64,000 nt of DNA. Source: Miltoncostaea oceani (GTDB lineage Bacteria > Actinomycetota > Thermoleophilia > Miltoncostaeales > Miltoncostaeaceae). Shown here in pieces: positions 2,231-37,337 of this stretch. Where the stretch lies: positions 434,001-498,000 of the forward strand of contig NZ_CP064357.1 in NCBI RefSeq assembly GCF_018141545.1, given 5' to 3'. Each line of letters begins with the position of its first letter. Positions within the stretch are counted from its first letter, which is position 1. The notes beneath the pieces were generated by a model that was given only the letters and a program-made list of their open reading frames with translations, was not told the DNA's origin and made no database searches. Position numbers and translations under genes: made by a program.

Positions 2231-4006
2231 ATGAGCCGAGGCCGGGGAAGAGGAGCAGGTTCGTCAGGGGCGGCGCCTCGCGGGTCGAGTGCACCGACGC
2301 CGACGGAGCTGATCGTGGACTGCTTCGCGCGGGCGGACAGCGAGGTCGACGACGCGATCCGCGCGAAGGTCGCCGAGCTCCTTGCAAAGAAGGAGGATCC
2401 GGTCGCCGGCGGCGTCGGAGGCGACACCGCAAAGGACGCCTCGGACCTGGTGCTCGCCGCCCGGACGGCCGCCGCGGGCGATGCCGCGTCCGTGCGGCAG
2501 GCGATCACCCTGCTCGAGCGCGCGCTCGTCCACCAGCAGGCCTTCATCGAGCGCGTGGACGCCGCCGTCAAGGAGCCGCGTAAGCGCGCCAGCTATGAGA
2601 TCTGGAACGCCGCGGGTCTGAAGGGCACGGACACCGGCCACCACGAAGCCCTCCTTGACCGCGCCGAGGCTCAGCGACGGTCGATCGAGCAGCAGCTGGC
2701 GGATCTTCGACGGCCGGGTCGCACGAACTGGGCGCTCACCGCCCGCAGGTCGTTCGGCCGGGATGCGATCGCCAAGACCCACGCGAACGGCCTCCTCCAT
2801 CAGGCGCTCGCCTCTGACACGCTCGATCACGCCCGGGGCCTGATCGAGAGCTGGGAGGCGGCCATGGCACCCGATGACGGCCTTGAGCCCGAAGAGGGTC
2901 CGGACCTCGCGTGCCTGATCGGCCTCGGCAGGATCGCCCGGGCTACGGCCGCCGTCGGCGAGCAGGAGGGGACCGACTGGCTGTCGATCTCCCGAAACGA
3001 CGTCGATGTGATGCTCGAGAACTTGCAGTCCAATCGCCGAAGCGGCGACGCCTATGAGAAGGCCCTCCATCAGATGCACCGATCACGGCTTCCCGAGGAG
3101 CTCCCGATCGCACGCGCATCGAGCGCCGAGGCCGTCATGGCCCGCGCCCGCGCGATGACGCGCATCCCGCGCCGCTTCGACTCGAGCCGGGACCGCTACC
3201 GGCCGAACCCCTATGAGCGGATCGTCCTGACGATCCCCGCCGAGCCTGCCGCGATCATCGAGCTCGCCGCAGAGGGGGCATCGAACATGTACGCCCAGCG
3301 GCCGGTCCGGTTCAACGTCAGCGAGACCCGGCGCGGCGGACGGAGGGGCGGCTTCCTGGCGGTCAGTCGGATCGCGAAGATCAACGGCCAGAGCGTCGAG
3401 GTGCGCGCGATGTGCCCGCTCGGCAGCAGCCGGATGACCACCGATGAGTCCAATCACCAGTGGGCGCTCGAACGCTCGCAGGAGCTCGGCCTGTCAGAGG
3501 CCATGGCCGCTGCCATGACGGTGAAGGACCCCTCGGACTTCGATCCGTGCGTCCTCGGTAAGCCGGTCCTGTCGGAGGGGACCTCCATGTCCAGCCGAAT
3601 CGCCCGGGTCGGCGCGCAGCGTCTGCCGGATCTGGTCGGCGCTGATCGCTGTGCCCACCCGAATGCGAGCTGGACGAGCGTCCGCCGGCCGGGCAAGCAG
3701 CGCGACAGCGCGCGCCTTCGCTGCCCGGGCTGCCTGCGCAACGCGATCGCCAGCGTCCCCCTCCACCGTCTTCCCGAAGGGCACCCAAGCCTCGAGGGTC
3801 TGGATGAGACGACCTACCTCGCGCGGGAGCGGTACTACGCCGAGCTGGCGGGCCGCACACCCTCGCGCGCGACGACCGTCGCGCAGCTGCGCTCAGAGGA
3901 CGGCGAGGCCGACCTCAACCCGGCGGCCTACGCCGTCGGTGAGGATCTCCCCGGCGCCAACCGGCCGAAGTCCGTGCGCTCGTTGCTCGCCCGCAGCAGC
4001 CGCTGA
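2231..4006 (+). CDS. Unknown protein with C-terminal zinc-ribbon-like module (paralogue A)
   Basis: 591 residues. A Gly/Arg/Ser-rich start is followed by a long, mostly helical, charged region (about residues 20-290) and then a mixed region with beta-strand character. The C-terminal ~120 residues hold Cys-x-His...Trp...Cys-Pro-x-Cys followed by a Val-Pro-x-His-Arg-Leu-Pro-Glu-Gly block, Thr-Tyr-Leu, and an Arg-Ser-Glu-Asp-Gly motif. The same blocks in the same order occur in the protein at 22842-24020, so the two are paralogues sharing this module. The Cys/His spacing fits a small zinc ribbon, perhaps for nucleic-acid or protein binding. This is inference and no known family was recognised. 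Not exported: no signal peptide or membrane segment. The start is the first ATG in frame and has no strong Shine-Dalgarno sequence. Confidence 0.75.
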   Translation: MSRGRGRGAGSSGAAPRGSSAPTPTELIVDCFARADSEVDDAIRAKVAELLAKKEDPVAGGVGGDTAKDASDLVLAARTAAAGDAASVRQAITLLERALVHQQAFIERVDAAVKEPRKRASYEIWNAAGLKGTDTGHHEALLDRAEAQRRSIEQQLADLRRPGRTNWALTARRSFGRDAIAKTHANGLLHQALASDTLDHARGLIESWEAAMAPDDGLEPEEGPDLACLIGLGRIARATAAVGEQEGTDWLSISRNDVDVMLENLQSNRRSGDAYEKALHQMHRSRLPEELPIARASSAEAVMARARAMTRIPRRFDSSRDRYRPNPYERIVLTIPAEPAAIIELAAEGASNMYAQRPVRFNVSETRRGGRRGGFLAVSRIAKINGQSVEVRAMCPLGSSRMTTDESNHQWALERSQELGLSEAMAAAMTVKDPSDFDPCVLGKPVLSEGTSMSSRIARVGAQRLPDLVGADRCAHPNASWTSVRRPGKQRDSARLRCPGCLRNAIASVPLHRLPEGHPSLEGLDETTYLARERYYAELAGRTPSRATTVAQLRSEDGEADLNPAAYAVGEDLPGANRPKSVRSLLARSSR

Positions 4007-14621: not shown

Positions 14622-15218
14622 ATGCCACGCGGCCGATCTCACACGTCCCCGTCACCGCTTCCGGCGCCGCGAGGCCTCACCGCGAAGCTCTGGGACGAGC
14701 TGCGCACGCAGCTTGAGGTCCACGAGGCCATCGATGCCCGCCAGCGGGCGATCCACGACCTGGTAACGGGGGCGATCGCCGCGCTCGCGTGGCCGAGCGT
14801 CTGCGAGCTCCTGCGGGACCTTGACTGGCGCCTCGACCCGGAGAAGGACGGCCCGATGCTCGCCGAGACACCCGACACCTGGGATGTCGGCTGGGACGAT
14901 GATGCAGACGAGGATCCGATGGAGACCTATGCCGTCTCCTGCTCGTTCAGCGACCTCGTCGCCGATGCTCTCGGGCCGGACGCCCCCTCGGGCTGGCAGG
15001 AGCGTTGCCGCGCCCTCGAGGCGATCGATCCGACCACTCACCCTCTGAGCATCGCCGAGTTCGACTACAACTTCGAGTATGGCGAGAGCGTCGGCGCTCG
15101 TGAGAGCACCCTCGACGAGGAGCTGCGCTCGACGGTGAGCCACGCGCTGGCCACCATCTACTCACGTCGGATCGAGAACGACCCGTTGCTGTGCGCCTGG
15201 GACTGGTCGCGGCCCTGA
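14622..15218 (+). CDS. Hypothetical acidic cytoplasmic protein
   Basis: 198 residues; a short basic Pro/Ser N-terminus, then helical segments and a strongly acidic middle (GWDDDADEDPMETYAV, about residues 88-104). No signal peptide, membrane segment or known motif. It reads 70 bases upstream of a DNA methyltransferase in the same direction, so it may be co-transcribed, but nothing in it suggests a nuclease. Confidence 0.6.
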   Translation: MPRGRSHTSPSPLPAPRGLTAKLWDELRTQLEVHEAIDARQRAIHDLVTGAIAALAWPSVCELLRDLDWRLDPEKDGPMLAETPDTWDVGWDDDADEDPMETYAVSCSFSDLVADALGPDAPSGWQERCRALEAIDPTTHPLSIAEFDYNFEYGESVGARESTLDEELRSTVSHALATIYSRRIENDPLLCAWDWSRP

Positions 15219-15288: not shown

Positions 15289-16917
15289 GTGGCGATGGTC
15301 CCATCGCCCTCACGCAAGGTCGCCCTCGGCCAGTTCTACTCGACCCGTGCCCTGGCCGAGTTCATGCTCTCGCTCACGCTGTCGGATCCCTCAACGGCTC
15401 GGGCACTCGAGCCGAGCTGCGGGCCGGGCGTGTTCGTCGACGCGCTCGTTGAGCGCGGGTGGCGTGACATCACCGCCGTCGACATCGACCCGGTGAACGC
15501 CGGCCTGGTACGGCAGGTCCATGGGGGTCTGGTCGAGGTCCGGTGCCAGGACTTCCTCGACATGACCGAGGCGAACTACGACCTGGTGATCGGCAACCCG
15601 CCCTATGTCGGCTGGTCTCACCTGTCCGCGGATGTGCGGAGCCGACTGCGCACGGGCGCGCCCTGGGCCGAGCTCGCGAACGGTCAATGGGACCTGCTCT
15701 ACTCCTTCCTCATCTGGTCGGTGCTTCGGCTACGAGACGGGGGCGAGCTGGTCTTCATCGTCCCGACCGCCTGGATGACCTCCACCTATGCCGCGTCGCT
15801 TCGGGGTTTCCTCGCCGCGCATGGGGACTTCGAGCTCATCCTGCGCTTCGGCGAGATGCGGCTCTTCGCCGACTGCCACCCGCACTGCATGGTCTTCCGC
15901 TACCGGCGCCGGATCGCCCCCCGACGCGGCGCGATCATGGTCGGCGACCTGAACGCATCCCGGGGGCTCTCCCCCACCGCCGCGCTCGCCGAGGCCTCTC
16001 GCCTCTTCGGCGCGGCGCCGGGGCCGCTGGGTGCCGGGGCCGGGGCGCCCGATGGGGGCTGGAGCGCCTACATCGCGCCGGCCTTCGCCGGGGCTGGTCC
16101 CTGGTCCCTCGTCCCTCCGCTCGAGCGTCAGGAGAACGAGCGCCTCGAGCTGGCCTGCCGGGGCTCGTCGCTGAGCGATCTCGCTCATGTCTGCGTCGGC
16201 GTGGCGAGCGGGCTCAACGAGGCCTTCACGCTCTCCGACGCTGACCAGGTGCCGGCGGCGGAGAGACTCCACGTCCGCAAGTTCGTCAGCGGGGGAGGCT
16301 GTGAACGCTTCACCCGCGCGCGGACCTTCCCGATGATCTTCCCGGAGGCGCAGCTCGAGGAAGAGCTCGAAGGCCGCGCTCCCTGGATCCATGCGCGGTT
16401 GAGTGAGCGCCGAGGGGATCTCGAGGGGCGGCATCTCGCTGCCGGCCGCCCGTGGTTCTCCTGGGCGACGGTCCGCAACATGGAGGTCTTCGCGTCGCGT
16501 GCCGGTCGGGCGGCGATCGCTGTCCGCCCGATCGACCGTGCGCCGAAGGCCCGCTTTGCGCTCGTCGAGGGTGATGCACTCCCACTCGGCGACACCCTGA
16601 TGATCGTCCGGCGCGAGGAGGCCCGAGAGGACGTCCTGTACCTACTCTCCTGGTTGAGCAGCGCCCGTGTGTGGCGCTGGTACTCCTCGAGGGGCCCGCG
16701 CATGGGGGACCGGCTCCGCTACACCCAGGGGCACGTCAGCCGGGTCCCCGTCCTCGTGATCGACTGGACCGACCCTGTCGAGGTCGCGGCGCACGCCCGC
16801 ATCGTCGCCTTCGCCGAGGCGCGTCTCGACGCCGAGGTGGACGCAGCCTCACGCCTGGAGGGCCTGATTGACACGGCCTTCGATGCGCTGGTCGCCCGTC
16901 GCGTCAGCGCCCTCTAG
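15289..16917 (+). CDS. N6-adenine DNA methyltransferase (gamma-type, M.TaqI-like)
   Basis: 542 residues from GTG 15289 (ATG 15295 is equally possible). S-adenosylmethionine motif I is LEPSCGPGVF (about 41-50), with acidic VDIDP after it, and catalytic motif IV is Asn-Pro-Pro-Tyr in IGNPPYVGWS (about 103). Motif I before motif IV, followed by a long C-terminal target-recognition region, is the gamma-class layout of M.TaqI and of the methylase half of type IIG enzymes. No nuclease domain is fused and no nuclease gene is adjacent, so it looks like a solitary methyltransferase. Its 3' end overlaps the convergent thymidine kinase gene by 4 bases. Confidence 0.85.
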   Translation: MAMVPSPSRKVALGQFYSTRALAEFMLSLTLSDPSTARALEPSCGPGVFVDALVERGWRDITAVDIDPVNAGLVRQVHGGLVEVRCQDFLDMTEANYDLVIGNPPYVGWSHLSADVRSRLRTGAPWAELANGQWDLLYSFLIWSVLRLRDGGELVFIVPTAWMTSTYAASLRGFLAAHGDFELILRFGEMRLFADCHPHCMVFRYRRRIAPRRGAIMVGDLNASRGLSPTAALAEASRLFGAAPGPLGAGAGAPDGGWSAYIAPAFAGAGPWSLVPPLERQENERLELACRGSSLSDLAHVCVGVASGLNEAFTLSDADQVPAAERLHVRKFVSGGGCERFTRARTFPMIFPEAQLEEELEGRAPWIHARLSERRGDLEGRHLAAGRPWFSWATVRNMEVFASRAGRAAIAVRPIDRAPKARFALVEGDALPLGDTLMIVRREEAREDVLYLLSWLSSARVWRWYSSRGPRMGDRLRYTQGHVSRVPVLVIDWTDPVEVAAHARIVAFAEARLDAEVDAASRLEGLIDTAFDALVARRVSAL

Positions 16918-17571: not shown

Positions 17572-18108
17572 TCAGGTGGCGGAGATGCCGGTCCAGTCCG
17601 GTGCGCCCGAGGAGCAATCCTCACCGGGTTCCGTGCCGAGGCCCGCGAGGTTGCAGATCGCGTCGGTGTTCGTCTCACCCCAGGCGAAGGCGTACACGAG
17701 GTTGCTCGATCCGAGGCCGCCCTGCTGGTTGGTCCTCACGCAGTAGACGTTCCCGGCGCTCGAGGCGTTGCAGATGGTGATCGTCTGGTCGTCGAACTGC
17801 TCGAGGTAGAAACCACGTGGGGCGAGGGCCTGGGAGGCGGCGAGCGACACCGAGGCCTCGGGGAGGCTGTCCTGGAGCTGGAGGGCGAGCACGGCGTCGA
17901 CGGGGAAGGCGGTGCGCTCGGCCCATGAGGCCACAGCCGAGCGCATGGCGATGCTCAGTGAGCTCCGGGCCTGTGCGTTGCGCGCGGAGTCGAGGGCGCT
18001 GATGAACGAGGAGGTGCCGATCGTCGCGAGGATCGTCAGCACCCCGATGACAGTGATCAGCTCGATGATCGTCACCCCTCGGCGGCTCGCCCTCATGCGC
18101 GAGATCAT
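17572..18108 (-). CDS. Pseudopilin / type IV pilin-like protein
   Basis: 178 residues. The N-terminus is a class III signal: short basic leader, Gly11 cleavage, then VTIIELITVIGVLTILATIG with Glu at mature position 5, which prepilin peptidase processes and N-methylates. A helical stalk (ISALDSARNAQARSSLSIAMR) and a C-terminal globular part with two Cys pairs follow. A minor pilin or type II secretion-type pseudopilin is likely. No assembly ATPase, peptidase or membrane platform gene is in the window. A second pilin-like gene lies at 24185-26461. Confidence 0.85.
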   Translation of the reverse strand: MISRMRASRRGVTIIELITVIGVLTILATIGTSSFISALDSARNAQARSSLSIAMRSAVASWAERTAFPVDAVLALQLQDSLPEASVSLAASQALAPRGFYLEQFDDQTITICNASSAGNVYCVRTNQQGGLGSSNLVYAFAWGETNTDAICNLAGLGTEPGEDCSSGAPDWTGISAT

Positions 18109-18203: not shown

Positions 18204-19694
18204 GTGTCAAACACCGCCTCACGATCACGTCGCGGTGCCTTCTACACGCCGGCCCTGAGTGCAGACATGCTCGCCGGCCTCCTTCGGGTCGGCGACTCGG
18301 ACCGGGTACTCGAGCCCGCCGCCGGTGACGGAGCCCTGATCGAGGCCCTCCTTGGCCGCGGGGTTCGTCCCGAGCAGATCACCGCCTGGGAGCTCGACCC
18401 GGACACGTGTGCAGAGCTCGGCCGGCGCTACCCGGGCATCACCGTCGAGCAACGAGACGCCCTGCTGAGCGTGGACCCGGCGCGGTGGCCGAGGTTCGAC
18501 CGGATCATCGCGAACCCCCCATACCTCAGCAAGCAGAGCCACTACGTCCGGGCGAACCGGGACGCCCTCCGCCGTCGCTTCAGCGCGATCGGCTCGAGCG
18601 AGACCTACGCGATGTTCCTCGACCTCTGCCTGTCGTTGCTCGCGCCCAAGGGATGCTTGGCGTTCCTGGTCTCGGACACGATCCGCACCCTTAGGAGCCA
18701 TGAACGCCTGCGCGCGAGGATCCTCGCCGACTACCGCCTCGAGGCCGTCGTCGCGATGCCGGAGCGTCTCTTCACCGGAGCGAGCGTCCGGACCTGCATG
18801 CTCAGCGTCAGCCGCGGATCCTCCGGGACCGTCCGGGTCCTCCCCCACGCCCGCACCGAGACCGATTACAGCGACCCGGCTTCCTGGGGAGAGCTCACCC
18901 AGGCGAGCCTTCGCGACCTCCCCGGCAGGCCCCTGGCGACGGTCCTGCCAACGGGCGTCGAGGCGCTTCTCCGCGAGGGGCAGCCGCTCGGCGAGCTCGC
19001 CCGCTCGCACATCGGCATGCACACCACCGACAACGCGGTGAGCCTCGCGGCTCTCGCCGGTTCGTCGATGGCAAGGACCTATGAGCGACGCCGCGAGAGC
19101 GAGGGCGGGGATCCGGCGCGCTGGCGCGTCATCGAGGCGGGCGTTGCCGCGGGCGCCGGGTGGAGGCCGTATCTGCGTCAGGGAGGCGTCCGGGACTTCG
19201 CGGCGCCCATCGAGGAGTTCGTCGACTGGTCGCCGGCGGCGCGCGCGAACTACAAGGGAGCCGGCGGTGCGCTCTTCGGTGAGCCGGGCGTCGCCGTCTC
19301 CGGAGTCGCCTCTCGGCTGTCGGCGCGGCTGATGGACGCGGGTTCGCTGTGGGACTCGAACAAGGCACTGGGTGTCGTCGCACACCGGGCCGAGGACAGG
19401 TTGCTCATTCTCGGGCTCCTGTGCTCGGACCTCTATGCCTTCATCGCCAAGGCCTTGCTGAACGACTCACCCTCGATCCAGCTGTCGGACCTGCTGAGTC
19501 TGCGGATCCCGATACACGGCCGCGAGGAGATCCGACGCGCCTGCGCCGGCTGTGTCGCCGCGGTCTCGGATCCGCCGGCCCTCGGCCGAGCTCGCGCTGA
19601 GCTCGACGAGGCCGTCTACGCCGCCGCGCGGATCACCCCCGCCGATCGCGCGGTCATCAATGGGTGGTTGGGCGCCCGGGGCATCGGGCGGTAG
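18204..19694 (+). CDS. N6-adenine DNA methyltransferase (second gamma-type, solitary)
   Basis: 496 residues from GTG 18204. An N-terminal RGAFYTP motif precedes SAM-binding LEPAAGDGALIEALL (about 33-47), acidic WELDP, and catalytic IIANPPYLSKQS (about 109-119). The layout is again gamma-class. After the catalytic domain, FLVSDTIRTL and HERLRARIL resemble other N-6 methylases, and the last ~230 residues should hold the target-recognition domain. Only 95 bases separate its start from the divergent pseudopilin gene. No restriction nuclease is adjacent. It differs from the 15289-16917 enzyme, so the two probably modify different sites. Confidence 0.85.
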   Translation: MSNTASRSRRGAFYTPALSADMLAGLLRVGDSDRVLEPAAGDGALIEALLGRGVRPEQITAWELDPDTCAELGRRYPGITVEQRDALLSVDPARWPRFDRIIANPPYLSKQSHYVRANRDALRRRFSAIGSSETYAMFLDLCLSLLAPKGCLAFLVSDTIRTLRSHERLRARILADYRLEAVVAMPERLFTGASVRTCMLSVSRGSSGTVRVLPHARTETDYSDPASWGELTQASLRDLPGRPLATVLPTGVEALLREGQPLGELARSHIGMHTTDNAVSLAALAGSSMARTYERRRESEGGDPARWRVIEAGVAAGAGWRPYLRQGGVRDFAAPIEEFVDWSPAARANYKGAGGALFGEPGVAVSGVASRLSARLMDAGSLWDSNKALGVVAHRAEDRLLILGLLCSDLYAFIAKALLNDSPSIQLSDLLSLRIPIHGREEIRRACAGCVAAVSDPPALGRARAELDEAVYAAARITPADRAVINGWLGARGIGR

Positions 19695-22841: not shown

Positions 22842-24020
22842 TCAGAGCCGCATCCGCCAGGTCTCGGGGACCGCTTCGAGCCCTGCGCTGGAGGCGCGGA
22901 GGTGGTCCTGGATCCGCAGCGAGGAGATGCCGTCCTCGCTGCGGATCTGCTCGATCGCCCCGCGTCGCCGGTCGACCCCCATCCGGTGGATCTCCAGGTC
23001 GCTCCAGGAGACCCTGCCCGTGGCCGCCCGGTAGCGCCCCTCGGCGCGTAGGTAGGTCCTCGGCGCGGAGCGGATCTCTTCCAGCAGCCCCTCTCCTTCG
23101 GGGAGCCGGTGCGCGGGAACGCAGGCCAGGCGCTCCCGACCGCAGCGGGGGCACCCGAGAACAACCGCGTCGCGGGTGTCGTTGGCGCTCCAGGCGGCGT
23201 CCCGGTGGTAGCAGGGGCCGGCGTCGCCGCACAGCTCCGCAACGTGGCGCACCGCCCGGGCGCCGTCGAGTTCCCCGTCCATGTCCGCGCTCTGGGAACT
23301 GGGCGCACCGTCAAGGCCGAGGACGTGCGTGGGTGGGATGTGGATCGGTTCCCCATGAGCCACCATGACCGCTCCGATCGCTCTCTCGATCAGATCACGG
23401 ACCGAGGCTGCGTGCCGGGTCGGCTTCAGGACGCAGGAGACCTCGGTCCCGATCTGCCGGCCTTCGGGTGTCACGCCGGTCGTTCGCAGGCCGAGCCGGA
23501 GATCCACGAACTCGCGGCTGATCGACCGGGGGTCGCAGATGAGGAAGTAGTCCGCCTTCCAGCCGGCCTCCCGGAGCCGGCGCCGGTGATCGATGAGGAC
23601 GGAAAGATCGCAGTTGGCCTGCACCCGCCGGCGCGTCAGGTCCAAGCTGTGAAGGCCGACCGACTCGGGTACGAGGAGCCCTCTTCGGACGGAGCGTCGA
23701 AGCTGTGAGGGGATGCTGTGTGCGACGAGCGCGTCGGGTGCCGCGCCTCTCATCGACCACATGAGGCGCTCCTCCCCGAGGCCGACAAGACGCGCCGCGA
23801 TCGGCCCGTAGGCCTCGTCATCGCGGATCGACCCGAGACGACCCGAGACCGGGTCGCCCGGGTGGAGTCTCATCCAGGCCAGCGCGCGGTCGAGGTCGGC
23901 GAAGGAGATCGGCCAGGGACCCTCGGCCATCGCACGGACCGCGGCGAGGTCGCCGCGCGCGATCGCCTCGCGCAGCGGCGCTTCATCTTCGATGCTGATG
24001 GTGATTGGTGTCTGACGCAT
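22842..24020 (-). CDS. Unknown protein with C-terminal zinc-ribbon-like module (paralogue B)
   Basis: 392 residues from ATG 24020, with GAGGAG 12 bases upstream. The C-terminal ~115 residues contain Cys-x-His...Ala-x-Trp...Cys-Pro-x-Cys, then VPAHRLPEG, Thr-Tyr-Leu and Arg-Ser-Glu-Asp-Gly, matching the module at the end of the 2231-4006 protein in order and spacing. The N-terminal part is helical and Arg-rich and is not clearly alike in the two proteins. It reads convergent with the coiled-coil gene and divergent from the pseudopilin-LamG gene (164 bases). A metal-binding nucleic-acid or protein interaction role is guessed from the Cys/His pattern alone. Confidence 0.75.
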   Translation of the reverse strand: MRQTPITISIEDEAPLREAIARGDLAAVRAMAEGPWPISFADLDRALAWMRLHPGDPVSGRLGSIRDDEAYGPIAARLVGLGEERLMWSMRGAAPDALVAHSIPSQLRRSVRRGLLVPESVGLHSLDLTRRRVQANCDLSVLIDHRRRLREAGWKADYFLICDPRSISREFVDLRLGLRTTGVTPEGRQIGTEVSCVLKPTRHAASVRDLIERAIGAVMVAHGEPIHIPPTHVLGLDGAPSSQSADMDGELDGARAVRHVAELCGDAGPCYHRDAAWSANDTRDAVVLGCPRCGRERLACVPAHRLPEGEGLLEEIRSAPRTYLRAEGRYRAATGRVSWSDLEIHRMGVDRRRGAIEQIRSEDGISSLRIQDHLRASSAGLEAVPETWRMRL

Positions 24021-24184
24021 GGTCTGCCGGCGCTCCTCACCAGTGAATGTAGGCCGGAGACTGCGAAGTGGCGCACGCAGCCCCATCCCTGCGCTCGCCC
24101 GAACGGTGGCGCCGGTGTCCGAGGTCCGTGGCGAGGGCGAAAAACGGCATCGCCTCGCGCGGCCGGGAGCATGCTGGGCAGCTG

Positions 24185-26461
24185 ATGCGGCTCCCGAACC
24201 CCATGCGCCGAGGCCTGACCCTGGTGGAGATGATCGTCGTGATCGGGATCCTCCTGACGATCTCGCTCTTCAGCATCTACTCACTGGTCGGTGATGACAA
24301 CGCGATCGAGAACCGGCGGGTCGCGACCAACCTCACGCTGGCCTACGACGCCGCCAAGCAGAACTGGGACAAGCAGTCGAGCTACGGGACGACGGCGGCG
24401 ATCATCTCGACGGTCGAGGAAGCCGAAGCCGGTCTGGACGTCTCGACCACCGGCATCCCCCAGGGGGGCGACCCCGGGCAGCTGCGGCTGTATGTGATCA
24501 ACGCCCAGCAGCTGTCGTTCTGCGCCCAGTCCCGGTCGCTCAAGTACTTCTGCCTCACCGCGGACGAGGAAGGACGCCTGCAGGCTGCGAGCTCGGGCGC
24601 CGACGCGAAGAGGCTCGGCCGCTCCTGGGGCGAGAGCATCGATGACGCCCTCTGCTTCCTGCCGCGACGCGAAGGCCCGCCCTACGCCTGCAACGACGAG
24701 CGCGGCGGCCCCAGCTGGTCGGTCGGGCAGACGGGCGAGAGCGAGAGCCCCGGAGACGTCGAAGCCCCGACGCTGACCCTCTCGGCGCCGAAGTCCACCA
24801 ACGCCGGCGCGGTCAGCGTCACCTGGGCGCTCGAGGGCCAGGTCACGCAGGCGAAGTGCGGCATCGACATCCCCGCCGGGACCACGCTCAGCGCCGACTG
24901 CGACACCTTGAGCGCCCATAGCTTCGGCGGCTCGACACCTCTGAGTGCCGGTAGCCACACGCTCTCGGTCCAGGTGAAGGGCCCGGGCGGCTCGAGCGCG
25001 CGTCGCGACATCACCTACACGCGGACCGGCGGCAGTGGGGCCGGCTCGACCGATGGGTCCTTCTACCGTCAGCTGATCCTCGCGGACAACCCCATCGCCT
25101 ACTGGCGCCTCGCGGAGACCTCCCCTGCGGAGGGCGCCAAGAACGAAGCCGACCCGACCGGGCCACGCCTCGCCTACAGCCCGGGGACGAACCTCGGCCG
25201 ACCCGGCCTGGTCTCATCGGACCCGGCGACCTCGGCGAACTTCGACGGCACCACCACCCGCGCCTACTCCCTGGCGCTCCACCCGACCCTGATCGGCGAG
25301 GACAGGAACCTCACGCTCGAGGCCTGGGTCAACCTGACGCGGCTGCCGAACCGCGGGATCATCGCGAAGATCGGCTGCGGCAACGAGAGCCAGATCGGTG
25401 AGCCCTCCTGCGGCGGCGACGGTTTCGGGTTCGGCATCGGGCGCGGCGACGGTACCGGGGCCGACGGCAACGGCGCGCACCTGACCGTCGCCCTCGAGGG
25501 AGTCCGCTGGGTTCCCTCGGGCTACTCGTTCCCGCGCGAGGGCATCTACCACGTCGCCGTCACCGTGGACTCGGCGAAGACGCTCCGCTTCTACGTCGAC
25601 GGCGAGCGCGTCGGCCAGGCCTCGGTGACGGACCTGCGCGGTTCGAGTCGCACGGTGTCGATCGGCGGCTACAACATCTCCAACTCCGGCGGCCGCTTCT
25701 TCAGCGGCGGTGTCAGCGACGTCGCCATCTACACCCGGGCGCTCGGTCCCGAGGAGATCCGCGAGCACGCTCTCGCGGGCGCGCGGGCCTCGAACGCCCC
25801 CAGTACGATCCTCGCCGACTGGAGCTTCGGCACCTCTGACGGGGCGACAGTCGCCGACACCTCGGGGAACGCGCGCACCCTCAACCTGGTGGGCAGCCCG
25901 ATCGTCCGGCCCGGCAGCGGACCCTTCGCCGGCCGACAGGTGATGCGCTTCAACGGCTCCAGCCAGTATGGGACGCTCCCCGGGGGCATCGACCTTCGCA
26001 ACCGCTCCTTCTCGATCGCGACCTGGCTGAACGCCTCCTCACTCGGGGCTCAGAGGTGCTGGTTCACCAACAGCTACGGTCTCAACACCGCTCAGGCCTA
26101 CCACAACTGCACGCGGGCCAGCAACGGAATCACGACAGCCTTCTACGGGGAGGACCTCGACACCGTCGGGGGAGTGTTCGCGGACGCCAACTGGCATCAC
26201 GTGGTCATGGTCTATGACAAGGCTGCCGACCGCTCGCGGATCTACATGGACGGTGAGGAGATCCCCGCCAGCCACTATCTCGGGGGCACCAACCCGAACG
26301 CCGGGCCACTGACAGGCGGTGGAGCAGCGACCCTCGAGGTGGCACGCGCCGCACTCTCCAACAGCAACCACTGGGCTGGCGACATCGCCCAGCTGACCGT
26401 CTACGGGGAGCCGCTGAACGCATCGAAGGTGCGGGCCCTCTACCGCGACATCGCCGGCTGA
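24185..26461 (+). CDS. Pseudopilin fused to two LamG (concanavalin-like) domains
   Basis: 758 residues from ATG 24185. A class III prepilin signal, MRRGLTLVEMIVVIGIL, gives Gly10 cleavage and Glu at mature position 5, then a long helical stalk (about 27-45) as in type IV pilins. After ~150 residues of pilin-like globular part with Cys pairs and an Ig-like segment (about 200-285), two concanavalin A-like/LamG jelly rolls follow: about 295-530 (AYWRLAE...LEAWVNL...FYVDGE...DVAIYTRAL) and about 545-757 (ADWSFGTSDG...ATWLNAS...RIYMDGE...QLTVYGEPL). LamG domains bind glycans or proteins, so this could be a large minor pilin carrying an adhesive tip. No pilus assembly genes are nearby. Confidence 0.82.
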   Translation: MRLPNPMRRGLTLVEMIVVIGILLTISLFSIYSLVGDDNAIENRRVATNLTLAYDAAKQNWDKQSSYGTTAAIISTVEEAEAGLDVSTTGIPQGGDPGQLRLYVINAQQLSFCAQSRSLKYFCLTADEEGRLQAASSGADAKRLGRSWGESIDDALCFLPRREGPPYACNDERGGPSWSVGQTGESESPGDVEAPTLTLSAPKSTNAGAVSVTWALEGQVTQAKCGIDIPAGTTLSADCDTLSAHSFGGSTPLSAGSHTLSVQVKGPGGSSARRDITYTRTGGSGAGSTDGSFYRQLILADNPIAYWRLAETSPAEGAKNEADPTGPRLAYSPGTNLGRPGLVSSDPATSANFDGTTTRAYSLALHPTLIGEDRNLTLEAWVNLTRLPNRGIIAKIGCGNESQIGEPSCGGDGFGFGIGRGDGTGADGNGAHLTVALEGVRWVPSGYSFPREGIYHVAVTVDSAKTLRFYVDGERVGQASVTDLRGSSRTVSIGGYNISNSGGRFFSGGVSDVAIYTRALGPEEIREHALAGARASNAPSTILADWSFGTSDGATVADTSGNARTLNLVGSPIVRPGSGPFAGRQVMRFNGSSQYGTLPGGIDLRNRSFSIATWLNASSLGAQRCWFTNSYGLNTAQAYHNCTRASNGITTAFYGEDLDTVGGVFADANWHHVVMVYDKAADRSRIYMDGEEIPASHYLGGTNPNAGPLTGGGAATLEVARAALSNSNHWAGDIAQLTVYGEPLNASKVRALYRDIAG

Positions 26462-26503: not shown

Positions 26504-27418
26504 ATGGGACGAGGACGACAGACTCCAGCACACGGACCGGCCGCGATCACCCACGGAGGTTCGGGCGAAGCGTCAGTCGCCTCCCTTCTCGCATCGTTGC
26601 GCGCGGAGGCAGTGAGGGTCCGCCGGGACGGCACTCCTGAGGCATGGGCCGGCGCCGGCGCGGCGCTCGACGCCGTCATGGCGAGCCCGAGTCCGGCGAA
26701 GGTGCTCGGCCGTCTCGCGCAGACGCCCGACCTCGAGACCCTCCTGCCGGACATCGCGATCCAGGTCGGGTTCGACCAGCGGTCCCCGTACCACCCCGAG
26801 GGCGACCTGTTCGTCCACACCCACGGCGTCCTCGAGCGCATCAGCGCGCTCACCGATGACCCGGATCTGCGCTGGGCGGCACTCCTCCACGACTCGGGTA
26901 AGCCCGAGTCCTTCTGGCTCGATGACAAGGGAGTCGGCCACTTCTACCAGTCGCGCACCTCGGGCACGGAGAACCATGAGGTCGTCTCCGCCCGGATCGC
27001 CCGGCGTGTCCTCGCCGCGTTCGCCATCGCCCCTGACCGCGCCCGGAGGATCGAGCGGATCGTCCGCAGTCACATGCGGCTCCGCTTCGAGACCGAGAAG
27101 GCGGCGCGCCGGTTCATCGACAAGGTCGGCCCGGATCTGGTCGAGCCCCTGCTCATCCACCGCCAAGCCGATCACGAGGGCGAAGGGTCCGCGGAGGACT
27201 CGATCGGGCGGATGCGTGCGCTGATCGCCAAGGCGTCGTCGCCAGCCCCCGCGGCCGCCAAGGGCGGACTCTCGGTCGACGGCGGAGCCCTGAAGGGCAT
27301 CGGGATCACCGGCCCTCGGATCGGCGAGGTGATCGCCACCCTGCGCTCCGAGGTCTCATCGGGCTCGCTCGTCAACGAGCGCGAGGCGCTGCTCACCCGA
27401 GCCCGGTCCCTCTCCTAG
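26504..27418 (+). CDS. HD-domain phosphohydrolase related to CCA-adding enzyme HD region
   Basis: 304 residues. The HD signature is LLHDSGKP (about 128-135), with His-Thr-His upstream (LFVHTHGVLERI) and NHEVVSARIARRVL and SHMRLRF downstream, supplying the metal-binding His/Asp set. The C-terminal part (KGIGITGPRIGEVIATL...VNEREALL) matches the tail of HD-type tRNA nucleotidyltransferases, but the N-terminal nucleotidyltransferase domain of that enzyme is absent. The likely activity is metal-dependent phosphodiesterase or phosphatase on a nucleotide or RNA end. Cytosolic. It converges with the UPF0182 gene across a terminator hairpin. Confidence 0.8.
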   Translation: MGRGRQTPAHGPAAITHGGSGEASVASLLASLRAEAVRVRRDGTPEAWAGAGAALDAVMASPSPAKVLGRLAQTPDLETLLPDIAIQVGFDQRSPYHPEGDLFVHTHGVLERISALTDDPDLRWAALLHDSGKPESFWLDDKGVGHFYQSRTSGTENHEVVSARIARRVLAAFAIAPDRARRIERIVRSHMRLRFETEKAARRFIDKVGPDLVEPLLIHRQADHEGEGSAEDSIGRMRALIAKASSPAPAAAKGGLSVDGGALKGIGITGPRIGEVIATLRSEVSSGSLVNEREALLTRARSLS

Positions 27419-33980: not shown

Positions 33981-35312
33981 ATGCGGTTGGAGGCGCTACC
34001 CGGATACCACCGGGCACTGACATTCGGCGGTGACGCGCGCCCGGGGAGCGCCCTCCTGTTCGGCGACAACCTGCGCTCCCTCGAGGCCCTGGAGCGCCAG
34101 GCCGCGGCCCAGGGTGTCCCGGCCCCGCTCTCCGCCTGCTACACGGACCCCCCGTACAACACCGGCGAGCAGTGGGAGCTGCCGAGCGGCGTGGTCGCCT
34201 ATGACGACTCGTGGACCGATGATGCGGAGTTCTATGCGTTCCTGCGTCCCCGCCTCGCCGCCGTCCACCGGCTGCTGTCTCCGAGCGCGAGCGTCTACGT
34301 GCACATCGACGTGCGGATCAGCCCCTACATCCGGGTGATGCTCGACGAGATCTTCGGTGGGGGCTGCTTCCGCAACCAGATCACCCGTATCAAGTGCAAC
34401 CCGAAGAACTTCTCCCGGCGCGCCTACGGGAGCGTGACCGACGTCATCTGCTTCTACTCGCGGACGCCGGCCGCCCCAGGGCCGGATCCCATGTACTGGG
34501 GGGACGCACGCGCGGCGTGGTCGCCGGGCGAGCTCGATCGTCTCTACCCCAAGACCGATGCCGATGGCCGGCGATACGCGACGACGCCCCTCCACGCCAA
34601 GGGCCGGACTCTCAATGGACCGACCGGGGAGGCCTGGCGTGGCCTGATGCCGCCTGAGGGCAAGCACTGGCGCCGGCCGCCGGCGGACCTGGAGGAGCTC
34701 GACCAGGCCGGCCGGATCGAATGGTCATCCACCGGTAACCCGCGGGAGATCATCTACGCCGACGAGAGCGCCGGGCGCCGTCTCCAGGATCTCTGGACCT
34801 TCAAGGACCCCGGTGTCAAGCGCAGTCGCTACCCGACCCAGAAGCCGCTCGAGATGCTCGAGATGCTCGTCCGCCAGTCCTCGCCCGAGGGCGGCCTGGT
34901 GCTCGACCCGTTCGCGGGCTCCGGTTCAACACTCGTTGCCGCCGAGCGCAACGGGCGGGCGTGGATCGGCTGCGACCAGGGCCATCCCTCCCTGGCGGCC
35001 AGCCTCGGCGCTCTGGCCTCCGACGAACGTGCCGCCTTCTCGCTCTGGCTCCCCGACACCGAGATGCTCGCCGGCCCGGCGCCCTTCGATGTCCGCGTCG
35101 AGGACGGGATGCTCATCCTTCCCGCAGGGGCGGATGAATCCCTGACACTGGTGGCCGGCGTCGACCTCTCCACGAGTCGCGCGGACGCGCTCCATCGTCA
35201 CGGTGGGCACTGGCATCTGACGGCGGATCAGTCCGCGCCGGCGCGGGTCCTGCTCGTTCGTGAGGATGGGGTTCGCACTATCGCGTCGGTAACACCCAGA
35301 ACCTCCAGCTAG
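33981..35312 (+). CDS. Beta-class DNA methyltransferase of a type II R-M system
   Basis: 443 residues from ATG 33981. Catalytic motif IV TDPPYNTG (about 56-63) precedes SAM motif I DPFAGSGSTL (about 309-318), the beta-class order used by many type II and type III Mod methylases. RSRYPTQKP and LQDLWTF in between are typical of this group. The middle of the protein (about 120-275) should hold target recognition. The next gene in the same direction encodes a probable PD-(D/E)XK nuclease, so this is likely the protecting enzyme of a restriction-modification pair. Modified base (N6-A or N4-C) cannot be decided from the sequence. Confidence 0.9.
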   Translation: MRLEALPGYHRALTFGGDARPGSALLFGDNLRSLEALERQAAAQGVPAPLSACYTDPPYNTGEQWELPSGVVAYDDSWTDDAEFYAFLRPRLAAVHRLLSPSASVYVHIDVRISPYIRVMLDEIFGGGCFRNQITRIKCNPKNFSRRAYGSVTDVICFYSRTPAAPGPDPMYWGDARAAWSPGELDRLYPKTDADGRRYATTPLHAKGRTLNGPTGEAWRGLMPPEGKHWRRPPADLEELDQAGRIEWSSTGNPREIIYADESAGRRLQDLWTFKDPGVKRSRYPTQKPLEMLEMLVRQSSPEGGLVLDPFAGSGSTLVAAERNGRAWIGCDQGHPSLAASLGALASDERAAFSLWLPDTEMLAGPAPFDVRVEDGMLILPAGADESLTLVAGVDLSTSRADALHRHGGHWHLTADQSAPARVLLVREDGVRTIASVTPRTSS

Positions 35313-35386
35313 ACTATCGTTCAGACACGGTTTCCGCCTGACGAGTAACGCGCGGGACGTATCAGCCCCCCGCATCATCGGATGCG

Positions 35387-36295
35387 ATGGCACGGGGACG
35401 AGGCACAGGGACGATCCAGACGCCGGCGGTGCGCGCGTCGGCCCGTCAGCGTCCCACACGGATTTCGAACCCGTGGACGCGGCGCTCGATCGAAAGAGCC
35501 ACAGCTCCTGGCTACCTCGATGCGCTGAGTGAGATCTACCCGCTCTCTGACGACGCTGGCGACCGGGAGATCCCGGACGACGTCTGGGCAAAGGTCGTGG
35601 AGGCGAGCAGCCAGGACGACGCGACCTTCTTCCGGGCACTGACAGGCTCGAGGATCCCCCGCTGGCCTGGGCGGGACAACCGCTTCATCGCGATGTTCGC
35701 GGCCAACCACGACCTGATCCTCCTAAACCCGGGCGCCCTCTCGGATGCGATGCGCGACGTGCGCGCAATGGACCTCGAGGAGCTGCGTATCGCTGCCACT
35801 GCCCCGATCAGCGCCTCCCGTCAGAATGGTCCCTACTTTCGCTCCTGGCTCGCCCAGCAGATCCCCACCGCGTCGGATATCGCGACCTTCGAGGGTTCGC
35901 GCCACCCGGTGGTCGGGCTGAATCGCGGCGATGAACGCCTCAACAGGTATGCGAGCGAGAAGCTCGGCTACCGAGGCGACAAGGGCCTCGACGCGATCGT
36001 CCGCGTCGGTGACACATTCCTCATCGTCGAAGCCAAGTTCATCACTGCCTCCGGCGGCAATCAGACCCTCCAGGCGGCGGATGCCCTGTCCGTCGGGAAG
36101 ATCCACGACGTCGGCAGGAAGGTCTATGGCGCCGCCGTCATGGATGGCTTCTGCCTCCTCGAGAACGGTCAGCGTGCCCATCAGATGATCCGGCGCTCAC
36201 GGGGGCCTGTTCTGAGCGCCCTCCTGTTCACCGACTTCCTCGAGCACCTCGCCGCTGGGGGATCACCCCGCAGTCTTCCTGCGCCGCCGCCCTAG
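35387..36295 (+). CDS. Type II restriction endonuclease (PD-(D/E)XK, Tsp45I-like)
   Basis: 302 residues, starting 75 bases after the methyltransferase gene. The catalytic core is KGLDAIVRVGDTFLIVEAKF: Asp202, Glu215 and Lys217 form the Asp-x(12)-Glu-Ala-Lys signature, followed by ITASGGNQTLQ. This arrangement, with Gly-Gly-x-Gln after the Lys, resembles the Tsp45I family of restriction enzymes. Target site unknown. It cleaves unmodified DNA. Its stop overlaps the 3' end of the convergent gene by 4 bases. Confidence 0.75.
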   Translation: MARGRGTGTIQTPAVRASARQRPTRISNPWTRRSIERATAPGYLDALSEIYPLSDDAGDREIPDDVWAKVVEASSQDDATFFRALTGSRIPRWPGRDNRFIAMFAANHDLILLNPGALSDAMRDVRAMDLEELRIAATAPISASRQNGPYFRSWLAQQIPTASDIATFEGSRHPVVGLNRGDERLNRYASEKLGYRGDKGLDAIVRVGDTFLIVEAKFITASGGNQTLQAADALSVGKIHDVGRKVYGAAVMDGFCLLENGQRAHQMIRRSRGPVLSALLFTDFLEHLAAGGSPRSLPAPPP

Positions 36296-36927
36296 CAGTC
36301 AAGGTGCCCGGGCAGAAGCGCCCTGCCTGCCGACCCCATCGCGGCATCCTCAGGACCCTGCGAGCTCGCCAGCAGCATGGCGCTGAAAGCGATCTCCCGC
36401 GCTTGGCGGACCTCGCGGGGAGTCTCAGGCCTCCAGGCCTCACGCCGCAAAGCCTCTGTCGTCGCCTCGTGGCTGAGGTGCCGGGCACGATGTCTGATCT
36501 GCTCATAGTCGACGTCCGGCGCCGAGTAGGTGGAGAGCAGCGCCAGGTACTCGGTGGCGAGTCTCTTGATGTCGATCGGCGTATTGACAGGATCGAGCAC
36601 CGGGGGGCTCACCTCGGTGATCGAGGCGATCTGTGCCGGGCTGAGTGGGCCACCGGTTCCGGCCGGATCGGACTGACACCAGAGCGCCAGGCAGAGGGCG
36701 CTCGCTCGGCTGAGTCTGAGGATGGGATCCTCGTCCTCGCTCACATCGGCCGCACTCATCGGGGTCCAGGTGGACAGAAGTCGGCACATACGAGCGAGCC
36801 GCAACGTGGTGTCCGTCGCGGGCACCCGCTCGTGGAGCTGGATGAGGCCGCGCTCGATCAGCGTGTCGAGGTTCTCGCGGACCCCGCGGGCCATCGTCGC
36901 GAGCGGGTCATCGGTGGTGCCATCCAC
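36292..36927 (-). CDS. All-helical protein of unknown function beside the R-M genes
   Basis: 211 residues if started at GTG 36927; ATG 36894 is an alternative, and neither has a clear Shine-Dalgarno. It is mostly helical with many Leu/Ala/Arg (RENLDTLIERGLIQLHERV, LRLARMCRLLSTW, RASALCLALWCQSD). No membrane segment or motif is recognised. Convergent with the nuclease gene and sharing 4 bases with it, so it may or may not belong to the R-M locus. Confidence 0.6.
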   Translation of the reverse strand: MDGTTDDPLATMARGVRENLDTLIERGLIQLHERVPATDTTLRLARMCRLLSTWTPMSAADVSEDEDPILRLSRASALCLALWCQSDPAGTGGPLSPAQIASITEVSPPVLDPVNTPIDIKRLATEYLALLSTYSAPDVDYEQIRHRARHLSHEATTEALRREAWRPETPREVRQAREIAFSAMLLASSQGPEDAAMGSAGRALLPGHLDC

Positions 36928-37337
36928 CGGCCGAACATAGCAGGCGAGGGGGCGACGCCGGTTCGATGTCCGCTGCGGGCACGCAGGGCTGCTGATATCA
37001 GTGGGCCGGGGGGCACGACCACGAGCCAAGTCACAGTCCTAAGGTCAGGGAACGACTGACATCGTGCTGGTTCACCTAGACGTCTGGCCAGATTCCCCGT
37101 AGCCATCGGTTGCGTTCCTGTCCGAATCGTCCGTAACGCAAGTGAATCTGGCGAATCTTTTCTGCTCGGGCCGGGAAGCGGCAGTCGCAAGGGACGCTGT
37201 TGGGTTCTGCAAGTGGTCGTTTTTGCGACCTTTCGGAGAAGCGGCGGAGGTTGTACCCGGTACCGCACAAGTTTCGCGCGGTCCACTCCCCTCGCCTCTA
37301 CGGTGAGACCACCAGCCCGACGTACCGAAGGCATCCA
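36928..37337. other. Divergent non-coding spacer with long hairpin
   Basis: 410 bases between the divergent helical-protein and CHAP genes, visibly less GC-rich than its flanks. It holds the two-tier inverted repeat at 37087-37152 and a small hairpin around 37213-37230 (GGTCG / CGACC). It probably contains promoters for both neighbours; none could be placed with confidence. Confidence 0.45.
37087..37152. promoter_or_regulatory. Two-tier inverted repeat in divergent spacer
   Basis: A 9-bp outer stem (GCCAGATTC 37087-37095 / GAATCTGGC 37144-37152) encloses a 7-bp inner stem (TTGCGTT 37110-37116 / AACGCAA 37135-37141) with an 18-nt loop. It could be an RNA element or a long operator pair. No known family fits. 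Confidence 0.4.

Follow-up and report, generated by a model that had tools for sequence, protein, structure and literature searches.

A Cys/His module family and terminal peptides shared with other proteins on the 815-kb replicon C2 of Miltoncostaea oceani

The window, a 64,000-nucleotide stretch of Miltoncostaea oceani DNA, corresponds to C2:434001-498000, where C2 is the contig that holds it (NZ_CP064357.1, assembly GCF_018141545.1). Two of its open reading frames, called P0001 and P0002 here, lie at positions 2231-4006 (+ strand, 591 aa) and 22842-24020 (- strand, 392 aa), respectively, as the initial annotation had placed them; an upstream ATG would give P0002 414 aa instead of 392. The C-terminal module that the annotation had described for the pair is present in both proteins, with C-x-H, W, CPxC, VPxHRLPEG, TYL, and RSEDG in the order claimed, and BLASTP aligns residues 474-562 of P0001 with residues 270-368 of P0002 (36% identity over about 100 residues, E=2e-11). 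In P0001 the Cys/His module, together with a C-terminal tail, spans positions 3614-4003 (+ strand; alignment, profile search, and leave-one-out), and in P0002 the module spans positions 22845-23237 (- strand; BLASTP, alignment, and profile search), with C474, H476, C498, and C501 and C270, H272, C290, and C293, respectively, as candidate ligands. P0001 opens with the N-terminal tag M-S-R-G-R (2231-2245, + strand) and closes with the tail SVRSLLARSSR (3971-4003, + strand), which a tail profile places among the best-scoring C-termini of 869 C2 proteins. About 10 nt 5' of its ATG stands a -10-like hexamer, TAGTCT (2215-2220, + strand), a placement that fits a leaderless mRNA. P0002 lacks the N-terminal tag and its tail is degenerate.

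P0001 and P0002 make up a small share of a larger pattern that extends across the replicon. A search of the assembly with P0001 found 12 places and a profile of 11 modules found 13 confident places and one weak one, every one of them on C2, which makes up 18% of the assembly. Leave-one-out module profiles recovered 13 members at E values of 3.5e-31 to 3.5e-16 and a 14th (C2:287683) at 2e-4, and a profile of these 14 added a 15th member at C2:120930 (E=5.8e-6) and a possible 16th at C2:87375 (E=0.007). Chance similarity of the modules is excluded because P0001 and P0002, when held out, are still found among 869 proteins at E=3.5e-31 and 2.1e-18, respectively. Members are partly clustered, with four lying together in 11 kb (C2:404-415 kb) and a tandem pair at 23-28 kb. 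The genome-wide count thus gives a family of 15, with a possible 16th, all on C2. The initial annotation had noticed neither this number of members, nor the M-x-RGR starts and SVRxLL ends that most of them carry, nor the occurrence of both end-peptides on unrelated C2 proteins.

The module reads roughly C-x-H-x(4)-W ... [LV]-x-C-x2-C-x(7-9)-P-x-H-R-L-P, followed by Y-L, a helix-rich stretch, L-x-x-[RE]-D-G, and the tail. In 14 of the 15 confident members all four potential zinc ligands (C-x-H...C-x2-C) are retained; the exception is C2:287683, which has C-x4-C instead of C-x2-C. The two conserved Cys/His ligand pairs expected of a zinc ribbon are thus found. AlphaFold2 models of the two window proteins, built on an alignment of these two alone, both place three strands and then helices over the module, at pLDDT values (39 and 35, range 35-39) too low to interpret. 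A zinc-ribbon-like fold is accordingly a candidate, and no fold is claimed here. Ahead of the module lies a second shared region, which leave-one-out profiles detect at E values of 8e-5 to 1.8e-19 in seven of 13 members and more weakly in the others; the outliers are C2:367129 (E=4.3) and P0002, whose relatedness to other members in this region is undetectable (E=20). The view that the N-terminal parts differ therefore holds for the P0001/P0002 pair but fails for the family, most members of which share the region before the module, and the picture of one module on different helical partners is too simple.

The family is new, narrowly distributed, and confined to C2, which bears out the earlier suggestion of a lineage-specific family without a described relative. 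Profile search of the assembly's other contigs, C1 and C3, gave no confident member; the module alignment is too diverged for a pattern-based locus search. No member was found in a search of 41 relatives in the same taxonomic family. None was found in the other genomes of a 399-genome sample of the class, and a 396-genome sample of the phylum yielded a single outside match, marginal and partial (6.5e-4); in both samples about 10 candidates per genome were scored, a weaker search than that of the 41 relatives. Single-protein scans of IMG/VR and GTDB contigs, and searches of GenBank phages and PLSDB plasmids, returned no family match. Eleven members scanned against Pfam, NCBIfam, and PHROGs gave nothing above noise, any weak match being limited to a single member, and PDB gave no match. 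A PADLOC match to SspH at 4e-4 was set aside, as it was obtained for one of 11 members and not reproduced in the others.

Most family members start with M-[AGSP]-R-G-R. The slightly wider start M-[AGSP]-R-G-[RKS] is found on 52 of 869 C2 gene calls (about 6%), a count that is approximate, as are the start sites, because genes were called by a simple GC-position method. The variants MARGQ, MGRGH, and MARGA put the true number above 52. Three scrambled motifs occur on only 2-5 of the 869 genes, and the tag itself on 3 of 284 genes in sampled stretches of C1, the chromosome, and 0 of 38 on C3. The tag draws on all six Arg and all four Gly codons; because the codons vary, the tag is conserved as a peptide and not as DNA, with selection acting on the protein. 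The same variation ruled out a DNA-level cause, such as a conserved promoter cassette or a binding site that overlaps the start codon. Of 54 cases, 52 have A, G, S, or P as residue 2, compared with 73 of 135 untagged leaderless genes, and since this residue is nearly always small in tagged proteins the Met is probably removed. Residues 6-15 are 3% acidic and 12% hydrophobic, residues 6-25 are poor in both classes, and residues 2-25 carry a mean net charge of +3.4 vs +1.1; by this composition the tagged N-terminus is probably basic and disordered. A TAnnnT box at leaderless distance precedes 31 of 52 tagged genes vs 60 of 544 untagged genes as called (P=6e-15; background 0.5%), or vs 113 of 546 if any start is allowed (P=9e-9).

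The tag stands ahead of complete domains. Tagged proteins include a tyrosyl-tRNA synthetase, a sigma-70 region 2 protein, a CCA-adding enzyme, RecD2, an HNH plus RNA ligase protein, the RNA-repair nucleotidyltransferase RlaP, GmrSD, a DHH (RecJ-like) protein, an HD protein, and a Tsp45I-type restriction enzyme; the Tsp45I profile begins at residue 28, the RecD2 OB-fold at residue 26, and the alignment of TyrS to PDB 6bqy at residue 20. Tagged proteins with Pfam matches are mostly nucleic-acid enzymes. DnaE, the primase-helicase, RecA, and LigA of C2 are untagged. Besides P0001, the window holds a 198-aa protein that starts MPRGRSHT (14622-15218, + strand; no Pfam match), a protein that starts MGRGRQTP with an HD domain from residue 103 (26504-27418, + strand), the Tsp45I-type restriction enzyme, which starts MARGRGTG (35387-36295, + strand; 27-aa N-terminal extension, PF06300 at residues 28-287 corresponding to profile positions 1-259, E=1.9e-37), and a 245-aa protein with a TTG start that begins (M/L)ARGRAPR (36292-37029, - strand; no Pfam match). 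The restriction enzyme and an adjacent methylase form a Tsp45I-type restriction-modification pair (window 33981-36295), with the tag on the restriction enzyme only. Two Eco57I/N6-type DNA methylase-like genes (window 15289-16917 and 18204-19694) flank a thymidine-kinase-like gene and have no obvious restriction partner. Elsewhere on C2, the tagged proteins include an RNA-repair-like set of a CCA-adding enzyme, a kinase-like AAA_33 protein, two RNA ligases (one by eye), and an RlaP-type nucleotidyltransferase, at C2:57279 (-), 292723 (+), 389022 (+), 396734 (+), and 228076 (-).

The C-terminal tail, SVRxLLxxxxR, is carried by 12 of the 13 members first aligned and by the member at C2:287683 (+). 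It is also found on six C2 proteins outside the family, including MORN-like, SWIM-like, and WGR-like proteins, and five of these six bear the tag or its MARGAR variant (P=1.3e-6). Tag and tail were noticed and counted in the same data, and the counts and the co-occurrence P value are therefore descriptive, with independent support from the scrambled-motif, chromosome, and codon controls. The two peptides are separable: most tagged proteins outside the family are tail-less, and the 15th member has neither peptide. A positively charged C-terminus is present in the module family and absent from most tagged non-family proteins. Three MORN-like proteins with tandem H-R-x-D-G-P-A repeats are encoded at C2:13153 (-), 524981 (+), and 294306 (+), the first two with the tag (or the MARGAR variant) and the tail. 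The proteins at C2:294667-295371 and 507326-508006 combine a SWIM-like C-x-C...C-x-H cluster with an N-terminal tag and a tail-like C-terminus.

C2 is 815,643 bases long, next to a C1 of 3.68 Mb, from which it differs in G+C content (69-71% in sampled stretches vs 74-76%) and in tetranucleotide use. An open reading frame runs from its last bases into its first; this CpaE-like gene is preceded by a CpaB-like and followed by a CpaF-like gene. The cumulative GC skew of C2 reaches a single minimum near 0/810 kb and a single maximum near 420 kb; the in-frame gene across the contig ends and the two-halved skew indicate a closed circle. C2 carries 40 tRNAs and a tmRNA, a second ARAGORN tmRNA call on it being doubtful. 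It encodes its own NAD-dependent DNA ligase (Pfam), a VirB4-type ATPase with about 90% of its length aligned to plasmid VirB4-type proteins at about 30% identity, and, by eye, an adjoining intein-containing VirD4-like ATPase and PrgI/VirB6-like genes, as well as DnaE, RecA, and a fused primase-helicase. Many functions named here for C2 were assigned by eye, and those tied to Pfam, PDB, or tblastn results are the tested ones. Scans of C2 detected neither a 16S, 23S, or 5S signature nor a clear motif of the tested ribosomal proteins, RNA polymerase, EF-Tu, or EF-G, the sole EF-Tu-type match being a SelB-like gene, and a simple motif scan recognised no relaxase. Binning contamination, prompted by a second ligase on C1 with 48% identity to the C2 LigA and by a second tmRNA there, was rejected because C2 closes on itself and has no rRNA, ribosomal-protein, or RNA-polymerase motifs. 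A giant phage, prompted by the 40 tRNAs, the fused primase-helicase, RNA ligases, and a CobT-like protein, appears less likely: VirB4 matches plasmids, the CobT-like protein has no phage match, and no terminase, capsid, or portal gene was recognised by eye among the P-loop proteins and long open reading frames. C2 is thus best read as a complete circular megaplasmid. When the class was searched with the CobT-like protein and the primase-helicase, no sister plasmid came up, only weak chromosomal-primase-like matches. The 3.87% 'contamination' of the assembly may reflect duplicate marker genes on C2. Inteins are apparent by eye in DnaE, an RNA ligase, the VirD4-like ATPase, and a second RecD2, whose genes start at C2:6155 (-), 228076 (-), 736121 (+), and 48602 (+). 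Prepilin-like genes lie at window positions 17572-18108 and 24068-26461 (N-terminal GVTIIELI / GLTLVEMIVVIG), and by eye PilB, PilT, and Tad-type genes also appear to be present on C2, which may thus have pili of its own.

The reading we prefer, tentatively and with a probability of roughly 0.4, is that the module is a structural, zinc-ribbon-like unit in proteins that are drawn, along with further plasmid products, to a common partner encoded by the plasmid. Each family protein would begin with an N-terminal half that varies, often continue with a middle region shared among members, and end in the C-terminal module, in which the C-x-H and C-x2-C pairs would hold a structural zinc ion in a ribbon-like fold. 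M-[AGSP]-R-G-R, presumably after loss of its Met, and SVRxLLxxxxR would be short docking tags that bring the family, together with about 40 further proteins of the plasmid, to a single partner or nucleoprotein assembly that the plasmid encodes. Docking is preferred because the peptides sit at the extreme ends of proteins, are conserved as peptides, stand ahead of complete enzymes, and co-occur. The destination may be nucleic-acid-centred, an assembly favoured by what the tagged proteins of known domain do, which is mostly to act on DNA or RNA; a general address for the plasmid nucleoid is disfavoured because DnaE, the primase-helicase, RecA, and LigA are untagged. A wider version, possible but more doubtful, is that the 815-kb plasmid has its own protein-addressing code, in which peptides at one or both ends direct about 6% of its proteins, among them a tRNA synthetase, tRNA-repair enzymes, a sigma factor, and a restriction enzyme, to a compartment, assembly, or export route specific to the plasmid, with the expanded zinc-ribbon-like family as its core.

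The main rival, which we consider unlikely, is that the tail acts as a type IV secretion signal, by itself or jointly with the module and the tag, and that the tagged proteins are delivered to recipient cells, where they aid plasmid establishment. The VirB4 ATPase, VirD4-like ATPase, and PrgI/VirB6-like genes of C2 would supply parts of such a route, a plasmid that has just arrived could make good use of RNA-repair, sigma, and recombination functions, and the layout of module plus basic tail would be reminiscent of the BID domain and charged tail of Bartonella. Plasmids are known to pass proteins of their own into recipients (PMC8406263), and the usual type IV signals are short basic C-termini (PMC5675462), although N-terminal and internal signals also exist (PMC11288057). 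Most tagged proteins, however, have no basic C-terminus, the simple motif scan recognised no relaxase on C2, and the tag is missing from the kinds of protein for which co-transfer is known (ParB) or transfer is frequent (primase). Slightly less probable is an AT-hook-like or RG-rich nucleic-acid-binding tail that needs no dedicated partner, with the Cys/His module as a nucleic-acid-binding zinc ribbon. R-G-R forms the core with which AT-hooks and Lsr2-type silencers contact the minor groove, and the annotated tagged proteins are mostly DNA or RNA enzymes, but binding to DNA or RNA would not need the strict placement of the motif at residues 3-5 after a small residue 2, and the motif is near background in the sampled chromosome proteins.

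Two further explanations were weighed. The N-terminal peptide could tune early translation, with R-G-R codons 3-5 improving or pacing initiation on leaderless mRNAs and no role in the finished protein, as might be expected from a motif that lies at codons 2-5 of genes strongly enriched for leaderless promoters. Yet about 135 leaderless C2 genes, that is, most of them, are without the motif, the codons vary freely, the composition bias spans about 20 residues, and the C-terminal tail and its link to the tag are left unexplained, which makes this account quite improbable. The least probable is an ordinary fast-diverging plasmid gene family (for example of toxin, immunity, or regulatory paralogues) whose shared ends reflect common descent; the divergence and partial clustering of its members and the middle region common to most of them suit it, but descent cannot explain why TyrS, RecD2, the CCA-adding enzyme, a sigma factor, an RNA ligase, and a restriction enzyme bear the same tag or why the tail recurs on MORN-like, SWIM-like, and WGR-like proteins.

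If the end-peptides are addresses, the plasmid would keep its own products apart from those of the host or ship them together, which would be a novel level of plasmid biology. Should their role be confined to tuning translation, they would amount to an amino-acid signature that runs across the replicon and goes with leaderless genes, and we know of no other. The sequence pattern is strong under either reading, and the shared end-peptides are a larger point than the module family itself.

Several known systems resemble parts of this arrangement. The BID domain and charged tail of Bartonella type IV effectors and relaxases likewise combine a C-terminal domain and a positive end with differing N-terminal parts on a replicon with type IV secretion genes; however, BID is not a Cys/His domain, no BID match was among the Pfam hits of 11 members at E values up to 0.1, no module-bearing relaxase was found on C2, and C2 has dozens more proteins with the N-terminal peptide. 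Zinc ribbons and other small C-x-H / C-x2-C zinc domains share with the C2 module two ligand pairs around a W-containing stretch and predicted strands, whereas the module has no profile or PDB match and its ribbon fold is putative. Short terminal peptides that send unrelated proteins to one place are familiar from the capsid-targeting sequences of phage T4 and from encapsulation or cargo-loading peptides. Like these, the C2 peptides are short, N- or C-terminal, and borne by otherwise unrelated proteins, but their sequences are different, no capsid, terminase, or shell gene was recognised on C2, and C2 is plasmid-like. As a replicon, C2 is comparable to the tRNA-rich megaplasmid pMP7017 of Bifidobacterium, also a large actinobacterial plasmid, which at 190 kb (PMC10832533) contrasts with the 815 kb of C2.
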